Of a DNA stretch of 26,561 nt, positions 17,977-25,925 are shown piece by piece (position 1 is the stretch's first letter; the number at the start of each line of letters is the position of its first letter). The notes under the pieces were generated by a model. It saw nothing but the letters and a program-made list of their open reading frames with translations, was not told the DNA's origin and searched no databases. Position numbers and translations under genes: made by a program. Source of the stretch: a virus; the IMG/VR virus record IMGVR_UViG_3300011115_000901, positions 1 through 26,561 of that record. One strand, written 5' to 3'.

Positions 17977-18153
17977 ATGCTTAAATCAGACGTTATTGCG
18001 TATTATGGGGGCGTTCGGGCGGTTGCCGAGGCGCTAAAACTGAGCACGCAGGCTGTCACCGCGTGGAAAGCGGTCATTCCGGAGGTCAATGCCTGGCGCA
18101 TTTTCTCGCTGACAAAAGGCGAGCTCACAATTGACCAGGCGCTCTATGCTTGA
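17977..18153 (+). CDS. Cro-like repressor (Cro_II type)
   Basis: A 58-residue protein too short for many gene callers, with AAGGG just upstream. It reads M-L-K-S-D-V-I-A-Y-Y-G-G-V, V-A-E-A-L-K-L-S-T-Q-A-V-T-A-W and I-P-E-V-N-A-W-R-I. The helix-turn-helix spans about residues 11-33. This is the size and pattern of phage Cro proteins in which D-V-I-x-x-F/Y-G-G opens the domain. It lies just downstream of the divergent promoters and their TTTGCAA sites, as expected for a regulator of the early switch. No CI-type gene with a peptidase domain is visible in the window. Confidence 0.82.
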   Translation: MLKSDVIAYYGGVRAVAEALKLSTQAVTAWKAVIPEVNAWRIFSLTKGELTIDQALYA

Positions 18154-18517
18154 TCTCAAAGACCAGTTCGCGCTGGCGGCGATGGCTGCACTTTTGCAGC
18201 GCACATCAAACTCATCACCACACTATGCCGATGTCGCAAACAGCGCGTGGCAATGTGCGGAATTTATGATGAGTGAAAGACAAAAACGAATGGACATAGC
18301 TGCGCTCAACGAGCGACGAAACAACAGCGACATGCGAACTCTGAAGCTATCAACGCGGCTGCACTACGCCCTGTTGTCCGAGGATTTGTATACCATTGCC
18401 GACATTTGCGCCTACAGCGAAAACGAGATTTTGAGGATCCCAAATATTGGTCGCACACAATTAAATCATTTGAAAGAAGCTCTGGCTGCGGTCGGAGAAA
18501 CATTGGCGACGGCGTGA
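18146..18517 (+). CDS. Protein with RNA polymerase alpha-CTD-like domain
   Basis: A 123-residue protein. The ATG at 18146 overlaps the cro-like stop by 8 bases. An earlier in-frame ATG at 18131 lies deeper in that gene. Residues 1-50 form a small helical domain (M-L-D-L-K-D-Q-F-A-L-A-A-M). Residues about 66-120 align without gaps to the C-terminal domain of bacterial RNA polymerase alpha: L-S-T-R-L-H, I-A-D-I-C, S-E-N-E-I-L-R-I-P-N-I-G and L-N-H-L-K-E-A-L. R71 falls on the alpha DNA-contact residue R265 and G102 on G296, but N268, C269, K298, S299 and E302 are replaced. It could mimic or compete with alpha at UP elements or activators. That role is inference. Confidence 0.7.
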   Translation: MLDLKDQFALAAMAALLQRTSNSSPHYADVANSAWQCAEFMMSERQKRMDIAALNERRNNSDMRTLKLSTRLHYALLSEDLYTIADICAYSENEILRIPNIGRTQLNHLKEALAAVGETLATA

Positions 18518-19266
18518 ATGAGCTGGCTCTTTTCGCGGGCGCTGGTGGAGGCATACTCGGGGGAAAGCTGCTCGGATGGCGAACCGTTTGTGCAGTCGAA
18601 TGGGAACCCTACCCAGCAAGCGTACTTGTCGCAAGACAGAATGACGGCCTTCTCCCGGCTTTCCCGATTTGGGATGACGTTCGCACTTTTGACGGAAGGC
18701 CGTGGCGAGGAATTGTTGACGTTGTATCTGGCGGGTTTCCCTGTCAAGACATCAGCGCAGCAGGACACGGCGCCGGTATCTCCGGCAGTCGATCAGGACT
18801 CTGGTCGGAAATGGCAAGGATTATTGGGGAAGTACGACCACGTTACGCGTTCGTGGAAAACAGCCCAATGCTCACTTCTCGCGGACTTGGAACAGTGCTT
18901 GGAGATTTGGCCGCGCTGGGGTTTGATGCGCGATGGGGTGTCGTATCAGCAGCAGACGTTGGTGCGCCACATCTCAGAGAACGAATCTGGATTGTGGGCC
19001 ACGCCAATGATGTCGGATTGGAAGCTGGATTGCACGTTACCCGCAATTTATCGGAGGATGGAAGGAGGGCGGCATCCGATATTCCCAACACCGACAACGG
19101 GCGGTGGGGGCGGCGAGAGATCAGCGGAGAGGGCGGGAACGGGCGATTTGAATTTCATGGCGAGGACAAACAAATGGCCGACGCCAAGACTGAACGATTA
19201 CAAGGGGGAAGGGCAGCAGATGATACGCAAGGACGGGAAATCACGGATGGATCAGCTGTGCTTTAA
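18514..19266 (+). CDS. DNA (cytosine-5) methyltransferase
   Basis: A 250-residue protein from a GTG at 18514 that overlaps the upstream stop as GTGA. The frame is open further up, but motif I starts only at residue 4. L-A-L-F-A-G-A-G-G is motif I (SAM binding), V-E-W-E follows, V-S-G-G-F-P-C-Q-D-I carries the catalytic Cys (C77), F-V-E-N-S-P is the ENV motif in its ENS form, and R-E-R-I-W-I-V is motif VIII. The tail is polar and resembles a target-recognition region. Motifs IX and X are not seen, so it is shorter than the usual 300-400 residues. A second ORF covers the same DNA in another frame. Confidence 0.78.
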   Translation: MNELALFAGAGGGILGGKLLGWRTVCAVEWEPYPASVLVARQNDGLLPAFPIWDDVRTFDGRPWRGIVDVVSGGFPCQDISAAGHGAGISGSRSGLWSEMARIIGEVRPRYAFVENSPMLTSRGLGTVLGDLAALGFDARWGVVSAADVGAPHLRERIWIVGHANDVGLEAGLHVTRNLSEDGRRAASDIPNTDNGRWGRREISGEGGNGRFEFHGEDKQMADAKTERLQGGRAADDTQGREITDGSAVL

Positions 19267-19405
19267 CGTGGAATCTCAAGAAACTGGCCGCCTGAACCCG
19301 ACGTGGGTAGAGTGGCTAATGGGGTGGCCGCTAGAGTGGACAGACTTAAAGCCATTGGAAACGGACAAGTGCCAAGAGTGGCAGCAACAGCATTCAAACT
19401 TCTAG
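18518..19405 (+). CDS. Overlapping-frame ORF with methyltransferase-like C-terminus
   Basis: A 295-residue frame starting two bases after the stop of the alpha-CTD-like gene. It shares 749 bases with the methyltransferase in a +1 frame, then continues alone to 19405. It reads S-W-L-F-S-R-A-L-V-E-A-Y, F-S-R-L-S-R-F-G-M-T, L-L-G-K-Y-D and W-P-R-W-G-L-M-R-D-G. Three (W/F)-x-T-P units follow near residues 160, 189 and 220, then L-N-P-T-W-V-E-W-L-M-G-W-P. I recall this family from other phages, and the NPTWVEWLMG block also ends many phage cytosine methyltransferases. It is either a true overlapping gene or the downstream part of a frameshifted enzyme. Confidence 0.6.
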   Translation: MSWLFSRALVEAYSGESCSDGEPFVQSNGNPTQQAYLSQDRMTAFSRLSRFGMTFALLTEGRGEELLTLYLAGFPVKTSAQQDTAPVSPAVDQDSGRKWQGLLGKYDHVTRSWKTAQCSLLADLEQCLEIWPRWGLMRDGVSYQQQTLVRHISENESGLWATPMMSDWKLDCTLPAIYRRMEGGRHPIFPTPTTGGGGGERSAERAGTGDLNFMARTNKWPTPRLNDYKGEGQQMIRKDGKSRMDQLCFNVESQETGRLNPTWVEWLMGWPLEWTDLKPLETDKCQEWQQQHSNF

Positions 19406-24241: not shown

Positions 24242-24516
24242 TGTCTGATCAACAAAGAGACGAAAAAGGAAGGTTTGCTTCTAATCCGGGCGGGAAAACA
24301 GAATATAGCCACACAACATCTTCGACAAACGTTTCTTTATTAAAAGCTAAAACTGGAGAAATTAAGAAAAAAGCATTAGAGCATGCGCAATATTTAAAAG
24401 GTTTGGGATATGAACCTGTCAAAGTAACATCAATGTATACGGCGCACACTATTCCGGGACAGGGTATAGGCGGAACTAAAAGTTTTTTTGTTTATCACGG
24501 TCATCCTAAAAAATGA
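24241..24516 (+). CDS. Hypothetical protein (91 aa)
   Basis: A 91-residue protein joined by TAATG on one side and by ATGA to the methyltransferase gene. It starts M-S-D-Q-Q-R-D-E-K-G-R-F-A-S-N-P-G-G-K, a DNA-binding-like head often found in phage proteins (E-K-G-R-F), and ends F-F-V-Y-H-G-H-P-K-K. No known family is recognised. Confidence 0.6.
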   Translation: MSDQQRDEKGRFASNPGGKTEYSHTTSSTNVSLLKAKTGEIKKKALEHAQYLKGLGYEPVKVTSMYTAHTIPGQGIGGTKSFFVYHGHPKK

Positions 24517-25925
24517 ATATTGAGCAGGTAAAGCTCGATGCGCTGATTCCTTATGCCCGGAACAGCCGAACGCACTCTGAAGCGCAGGTTGCTCAGATTG
24601 CAGCCAGCATTAAAGAGTTTGGCTTTACCAATCCCGTCCTGATCGACGAGACCGGCAGCATCATTGCCGGCCATGGCAGGGTCATGGCGGCGCGAAAGTT
24701 GGCGATTGCTGACGTTCCGAGCATCAGGCTCACTCATCTGACCGACGCGCAGAAAAAAGCCTACGTTATTGCCGACAACAAGCTGGCGCTGAATGCGGGC
24801 TGGGATGACGAGATGCTGGCGGTGGAGCTCACCGACCTGAAGGACATGGGCTTTGACTTAGACTTGACGGGCTTTAGCACCGAGGAAATTGAAGCGTTGC
24901 TAGATGGCAATAATGAAATTAGTGGCGAATTAAAAGGTAATTTATCCGACCGTTTTATGATACCTCCTTTTTCTGTTTTAAATGCCCGCGAAGGCTGGTG
25001 GCAGGATCGCAAACAAACCTGGTTGGCGCTTGGTATTAAAAGCGAAGAAGGCCGAGGGGGGGGGCTAATGATGCAGAACCAAGAGGGTCTGCATAGCATT
25101 ATGAAAACTGGAAAATCAAAAGCAACGGCTGCGCCGGGTGGCAGTAATATGGTTGCCGGTTATAAAAACGGGCAAAGAGAAACTGGCTTAATTGTCGAAA
25201 GCGGAACAAGCATTTTTGACCCTGTGTTATGCGAAATTGCTTACCGTTGGTTTTCGCCTGTTGGCGGGCTAATCCTTGACCCGTTTGCCGGTGGATCGGT
25301 GCGCGGCATTGTTGCCAGCAAGCTAGGGCGGCAGTATATCGGGCATGAGCTGCGCCCGGAACAAGTGGAAGCTAACCGCGTGCAGGGCGGCGAGTTGTGC
25401 GGGGATAACGAGCACCCGCCTGCGTGGATAGCCGGGGATAGTCGCAACATTGATCAAACGTGCGCCGATGTAGACGCTGACATGGTGTTTAGCTGCCCAC
25501 CATATGCTGATTTAGAGGTTTACAGCAATGATCCAAAAGATTTGAGCACAATGCAATATGCTGAATTTCGGGCGGCATATTTTGAAATTATAAAAAAATC
25601 GTGCGACCGGCTTAAGCCTGACAGTTTTGCCTGCTTTGTAGTGGGCGAGGTTCGGGACAAAAAAGGCAATTACATTGATTTTGTGGGCGATACTGTTCAG
25701 GCTTTCCGCGAAGCCGGTTTGCATTATTACAATGAAGCAATTTTGGTAACCATGGTTGGCTCATTGCCAATAAGGGCAGGGCGGCAATTTAGCGCAGGCC
25801 GCAAGCTAGGCAAAACCCATCAAAATATACTGGTTTTTGTCAAAGGCGATGGCAAAAAAGCCGCCAACAGATGCGGAGAAGTAGAAGTCGATGAATCATT
25901 GTTTGATACCGTAAGCGTCCACTAA
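24513..25925 (+). CDS. ParB-domain DNA methyltransferase (adenine-N6 or cytosine-N4 type)
   Basis: A 470-residue fusion. Residues 1-130 are a ParB/Srx-like domain (L-I-P-Y-A-R-N-S-R-T-H, I-I-A-G-H-G-R-V-M-A-A-R, V-I-A-D-N-K-L-A). The methyltransferase part has motif I L-D-P-F-A-G-G-S-V-R-G (about 255-265), Y-I-G-H-E-L, and motif IV S-C-P-P-Y (327-331), the catalytic motif of N-methyltransferases. The order I then IV differs from the beta class. It should methylate adenine or cytosine amino groups, presumably on phage DNA to avoid host restriction. Its 3' end overlaps the opposite-strand gene by 30 bases. Confidence 0.82.
   Translation: MNIEQVKLDALIPYARNSRTHSEAQVAQIAASIKEFGFTNPVLIDETGSIIAGHGRVMAARKLAIADVPSIRLTHLTDAQKKAYVIADNKLALNAGWDDEMLAVELTDLKDMGFDLDLTGFSTEEIEALLDGNNEISGELKGNLSDRFMIPPFSVLNAREGWWQDRKQTWLALGIKSEEGRGGGLMMQNQEGLHSIMKTGKSKATAAPGGSNMVAGYKNGQRETGLIVESGTSIFDPVLCEIAYRWFSPVGGLILDPFAGGSVRGIVASKLGRQYIGHELRPEQVEANRVQGGELCGDNEHPPAWIAGDSRNIDQTCADVDADMVFSCPPYADLEVYSNDPKDLSTMQYAEFRAAYFEIIKKSCDRLKPDSFACFVVGEVRDKKGNYIDFVGDTVQAFREAGLHYYNEAILVTMVGSLPIRAGRQFSAGRKLGKTHQNILVFVKGDGKKAANRCGEVEVDESLFDTVSVH

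Follow-up and report, generated by a model that had tools for sequence, protein, structure and literature searches.

A phage gene read in two frames that probably encodes both polypeptides of a C5-cytosine DNA methyltransferase

The methyltransferase M.EcoHK31I recognises YGGCCR and consists of an alpha and a beta polypeptide. The beta polypeptide, about 176 amino acids long, starts well inside alpha and, as Lee et al. reportedly described in 1995, is encoded within the alpha gene in a different frame. To our knowledge, long genes that overlap on the same strand with both products under constraint are rare in bacteria and their viruses. M.EcoHK31I is a naturally split methyltransferase (PMC3439449), in which the large subunit holds motifs I to VIII, motif X, and the recognition domain and the small subunit holds only motif IX (PMC3404938); both polypeptides are needed (PMC3404938 and its reference 18). 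In M.AquI, the small subunit carries motifs IX and X together with part of the variable region (PMC3404938).

Here, we analyse a locus in a stretch of viral DNA of 26,561 nucleotides (the window), in which a cytosine methyltransferase gene (frame A) shares most of its length with a second open frame (frame B). The locus resembles M.EcoHK31I in that (i) the large polypeptide has motifs I to VIII and X without IX (in 94 of 105 relatives, frame A is uninterrupted from motif I through motif X, GNGQV; in the window, X is cut off), (ii) motif IX lies in a second polypeptide (LNPTWVEWLMGWP in frame B), and (iii) the second polypeptide occupies an overlapping frame of the first, as is said of EcoHK31I. 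It differs in that B is as long as A and starts 4 nt after it, which makes the overlap nearly complete, and in that the gene is phage borne, with no restriction enzyme seen beside it. This likeness concerns the division of motifs as described. M.AquI shares with the locus the two-polypeptide C5 architecture, but its type of split (IX and X in the small subunit) differs from the one seen here, X staying with motifs I to VIII in A. Because the motif division is the same as in M.EcoHK31I, a two-protein enzyme is the best reading, and we put at about 85% the probability that a single gene, read in two frames, encodes here a C5-cytosine DNA methyltransferase made of two polypeptides like M.EcoHK31I.

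The split of the motifs is itself already known. What is new is that the frames overlap almost entirely, from start codons only 4 nt apart, that this arrangement is conserved in many phages and prophages, and that a second phage clade shares it. In the literature covered, which included few subscription papers and did not extend to REBASE, we found neither a near-complete conserved double coding of both subunits nor a description of its spread over phages and prophages or of the contrast with ordinary enzymes. On overlapping cytosine methyltransferase genes in phages and on Mte8, this literature yielded nothing relevant beyond the M.EcoHK31I citations and PMC11855218, and a search of plasmids returned only seven records.

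Division of the methyltransferase motifs between two frames

The features of the locus are as follows.

18131..18517, plus strand: upstream ORF with an RNA polymerase alpha C-terminal-type domain (Pfam PF03118, E 2.4e-9)
18514..18520, plus strand: twin start GTGAATG, the GTG starting A and the ATG, 4 nt on, starting B; overlaps the TGA that ends the upstream ORF
18514..19266, plus strand: frame A, C5-cytosine DNA methyltransferase catalytic polypeptide (alpha-like); GTG start, 250 aa, motifs I to VIII
18518..19405, plus strand: frame B, second-frame polypeptide (beta-like); ATG start, 295 aa, +1 relative to A, matches phrog_1008
18532..18549, plus strand: motif I, FAGAGG, frame A (from sequence)
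18730..18747, plus strand: motif IV, GGFPCQ, with the catalytic Cys, frame A (from sequence)
18853..18867, plus strand: motif VI, (V)ENSP, frame A (from sequence and alignment)
18976..18990, plus strand: motif VIII, RERIW, frame A (from sequence and alignment)
18992..19186, plus strand: variable region with three (W/F)-x-T-P units in B, at 18992, 19079, and 19172
19264..19266, plus strand: premature stop TAA in frame A; a sense codon in relatives such as L050
19292..19330, plus strand: motif IX-like block LNPTWVEWLMGWP, frame B (from sequence)
19354..19395, plus strand: DNA of motif X, IGNGQVPRVAATAF, frame A, behind the premature stop; in the A protein of 94 of 105 relatives

Both open reading frames lie where the initial annotation had placed them, B running for 295 codons directly after the upstream TGA, and the four motifs that it had read in the GTG frame (I, IV, VI, and VIII) are all present. 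Frame A matches Pfam PF00145 (E 6.7e-31, confined to residues 5-170) and phrog_363 (E 8e-61) and follows the PF00145 motif order I, IV (PCQ), VI (reading ENS), and VIII; in the alignment of A, G73-C77 are invariant and Q78 is kept in at least 90% of sequences. The polypeptide of frame A does not also hold IX and X, IX being in B and X behind the stop in the window, though within frame A in relatives. The claim that A lacks both motifs thus holds for the 250-residue product of the window, from which IX and X are absent, but motif X exists in the DNA, in frame A behind the TAA; the initial annotation had missed it, along with the M.EcoHK31I precedent. Since frame A behind the TAA still reads through motif X, the stop looks recent. 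The copy in the window may be inactive, with A ending before motif X: without this motif the enzyme is expected to be weak or inactive, barring suppression of the stop or an error in the sequencing. Several copies in bacterial genomes likewise have a single stop in A with B open. A second methyltransferase, with a ParB-like N-terminal domain and an N6/N4 DNA methylase domain, is encoded elsewhere in the window (24513-25925).

Frame B matches a family labelled "DNA methyltransferase" in PHROG (phrog_1008); when its sequence was compared with Pfam, NCBIfam, and the PDB, B fell into no family, and no known family or fold was found for its N-terminal 135 residues. The (W/F)-x-T-P units and the string LNPTWVEWLMG that had been reported from the +1 frame are both found in B. 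The latter had been taken for a block associated with the ends of phage methyltransferases; it is indeed there, but its identity as the missing motif IX had not been recognised. Motif IX is the best conserved block of B, and its sequence, LNPTWVEWLMGWP, is read from DNA that in A encodes the stretch preceding motif X. Thus, motif IX is in B, and motifs I to VIII and X are in A. The three units of B (LWATP, IFPTP, and KWPTP) all correspond in A to (A/P)-(N/D)-(A/T) units, and the region containing them (18992-19186) is probably the target-recognition region.

Relatives were collected by searching viral contigs with B and with A, which gave 129 loci. A motif IX within frame A was seen in just two loci, L062 and L046, in both of which the frames are joined by indels. 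The stretch between motifs VIII and IX holds a variable number of units in both frames (median spacing, 32.5 codons), reading (W/F/L/Y)-x-(T/S)-P in B and commonly (A/S)-(N/H/D)-(A/S/T) in A; this unit-bearing stretch is likely to be the target-recognition region in the relatives as well. Acinetobacter phage ABMM1, Pseudomonas phage phPA-G, and Vibrio phage 1.236.O belong to the same clade as the window and have A and B in the same frame register.

A second clade is represented by Escherichia phage K1ind1 (GU196279), in which a C-specific methylase with motifs I to VIII and X occupies the outer frame and a nested "Mte8-like" protein in the +1 frame carries motif IX (LNPAHSRWLMGYP). It differs from the window in that the inner ORF begins 88 nt after the start of the outer one, and the A-type proteins of the two clades are distant. 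Among K1ind1-type genes, motif IX is in the +1 frame in 75 of 80 and in A in none of the 80. The B profiles of the two clades are related over B residues 71-291 (probability, 98.8%; E 1.1e-16), a match to which the shared ancestry of the underlying DNA contributes. As a control for ordinary phage C5 methyltransferases, we used the group of Gordonia phage Baddon, which has the same catalytic domain and a similar IX block (EWMMGLP); ordinary enzymes carry such a block, e.g., LSPVFVEWMMGLP, in their own frame. These genes, in contrast, keep IX and X in the frame of motifs I to VIII, and their +1 frame has on average about ten stops per gene; motif IX is in A in 71 of 80 and in the +1 frame in 0 of 80. 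Phages PS-1, SOVA965, and Alfacinha3 were considered as controls and rejected because of their long +1 frames, two of the three matching the motif IX pattern. The more distant C5 methyltransferase of Acidovorax phage Alfacinha3 (L139:1400-2572) has a 391-codon open +1 frame with LNPAFGCWLMGWP, which suggests that the layout reaches the Peduoviridae.

Both frames are under protein-level constraint

In nearly all viral loci, no stop interrupts the +1 frame over A residues 2-165, while the +2 frame has many stops. In most genomes A and B are of near-equal length, about 230-400 codons, and end close together, so that their overlap is almost complete in the relatives too. Searches of bacterial genomes with B gave 181 confirmed matches, of which 80 were kept; presumably, these lie mostly in prophages. 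The expectation of the initial annotation that similar second-frame proteins occur in other phages was thus borne out.

Could B be open by chance, merely because A is conserved and the base composition favours open frames? Relatives are 73-97% identical to A in its catalytic part, and the similarity among viral relatives by itself limits stops in the +1 frame. However, when A was recoded synonymously, the +1 frame stayed open in only 2.8% of trials, whereas all 84 divergent relatives (more than 5% different in sequence) have it open, and about 123 codons of variable sequence are open in both frames, for which the expectation is 3.6%. We also counted stop-making contexts, in which a Leu, Val, or Ile codon of A creates a stop in B (NTA followed by A or G, or NTG followed by A). 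The 84 divergent relatives of the window clade show 0 against about 538 expected, the opportunities falling in 38 codon columns, and the K1ind1 clade shows 3 against about 234; the control enzymes with IX in their own frame show 297 against about 600. Since the relatives share ancestry, the loci in all these counts are not independent. Together with the presence of motif IX in B, these observations leave a chance ORF with a negligible probability; the initial annotation had judged it unlikely.

In a sample chosen by A (74 relatives fetched with A alone), B is open for at least 200 codons in 72, and 67 combine motifs I to VIII and X in A with a B open through motif IX. A broken B beside an intact A (I to VIII plus X), the situation which, it had been proposed, would mark B as a chance ORF, was searched for and occurs in none of the 74; in the two relatives with a broken B, motif X is missing from A too.

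A comparison of synonymous sites between the frames, likewise proposed earlier, indicates purifying selection on B: changes that are synonymous in A are rarer when they alter B. In the N-terminal half of B, SN/SS is 0.38 (0.26-0.63) for transitions and 0.22 (0.17-0.31) for transversions, i.e., such changes are 2.6-fold and 4.6-fold rarer, respectively, than those silent in both frames. A second estimator, NN/NS on B, is weaker (transversions, 0.54 [0.35-0.96]; transitions, 0.88 [0.49-1.45], a range that includes 1).

The ATG of B is retained in 106 of 108 loci, while the start of A varies between ATG, GTG, TTG, and positions further upstream. Of 17 loci with an upstream A start, 11 have a separate Shine-Dalgarno sequence 6-8 nt before the ATG of B; twin-start loci usually have one, 4-5 nt before the A start and hence 8-9 nt before that of B. 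In the window, the upstream ORF (18131-18517) is in frame with B and stops at the TGA just before its ATG, and its translation is possibly coupled to that of B. Both frames are thus under constraint at the protein level, and B has a conserved start of its own. At this level of sequence constraint, the earlier proposal that both frames are translated and that their overlap is conserved is strongly supported.

A two-polypeptide enzyme and the alternatives

We propose that frame A would yield a large polypeptide for AdoMet binding and catalysis (motifs I to VIII), with motif X in intact relatives, while frame B, translated from its own ATG shortly after that of A, would yield a partner whose C terminus supplies motif IX, a conserved element that organises the small DNA-recognition domain. 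Together, A and B would form a single active enzyme, whose most likely role is to modify the phage DNA and thereby evade host restriction. That both are translated, form a complex, and are both needed for activity we infer; the anti-restriction role is suggested by what is generally known of phage methyltransferases. Several points were counted against the two-polypeptide reading: the stop in A of the window, the low-confidence model of B, the weaker NN/NS values, and the unexplained N-terminal half of B.

AlphaFold2 folded A alone only as the catalytic large domain, which superimposes on M.HhaI and M.HaeIII with a TM-score of about 0.48 over 166-168 columns, in the large domain only. Confidence is very low over residues 192-267 of A, a region that belongs to the variable part and has little alignment depth; this would be expected if a partner were needed and may be a faint hint in that direction. 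B alone was modelled with a mean pLDDT of 54, low except around the motif IX block.

The initial annotation had also considered that a frameshift joins the catalytic half to the C terminus of B, which would require that a fraction of ribosomes pass from A to B after motif VIII. Such a fusion would account for the location in B of the motif IX that A lacks, and in rare loci (L062 and L043-L046) the N terminus of A is indeed continuous with the C terminus of B through indels. However, because motif X lies downstream of IX and back in frame A, one frameshift would not give a complete enzyme: it gains IX and loses X. Moreover, B keeps its own ATG, in several loci with its own Shine-Dalgarno sequence, and its N-terminal half, for which a fusion would have no use, is constrained. 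We therefore regard a programmed ribosomal frameshift as very improbable.

Somewhat less remote, though still improbable, is that B is an independent accessory protein, for instance with an anti-restriction function, and that A works without motif IX or with some other substitute. It would fit the N-terminal 135 residues of B, to which no known family or fold was matched, and the several prophage copies in which B is open and A has a stop, a sample that was itself chosen by B. Against it, the best conserved block of B is exactly the motif that A lacks, the same exchange of IX is seen in two distant clades and not in ordinary enzymes, and M.EcoHK31I, as cited above, requires its two polypeptides.

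If the two-polypeptide reading is correct, the loss of either A or B could be read out by a simple methylation assay, and cloning of A without B should yield an inactive enzyme. It would also explain an annotation problem, namely, that such methyltransferases are recorded without motif IX, their B partner being left out, labelled hypothetical, or itself labelled a methyltransferase (phrog_1008). In the public records examined, both frames are annotated only in K1ind1; elsewhere one frame is kept, e.g., A in ABMM1 and B in phPA-G and 1.236.O. A broader proposal, to which we give even odds, is that these loci form a large and old class in phages and prophages, in which a single gene, read twice over nearly its whole length, supplies both subunits of a heterodimeric enzyme, the ratio of the subunits is set by two start codons 4 nt apart, and the N-terminal half of B is a new, overprinted domain.

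Frame swaps and insertions in individual loci

Some loci depart from the common layout. L062 has nine copies of a 5-bp repeat (CCAGA; L062:3494-3538) between motif VIII and the variable region, and its frame A runs into the C terminus of B across this repeat; L062 is possibly phase variable, a change in copy number switching the frames. In L007 (near a G run) and L043-L046 (near A codon 86), apparent small indels swap the A and B frames and leave motif X or IX in the wrong frame.

Phage methylases with inserted HNH endonucleases that lie hidden out of frame have been described (PMC11855218). B as a whole was considered as such an element and rejected, as it is no insertion and carries motif IX. 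L055 and L101 contain an HNH endonuclease-like ORF inserted at the motif IX block (PF01844, E 1.9e-4 for L055), in frames +1 and +2 after the block, with a second copy of LMGWPLGWTDL after the insertion in both, and these insertions resemble the hidden ones of PMC11855218.
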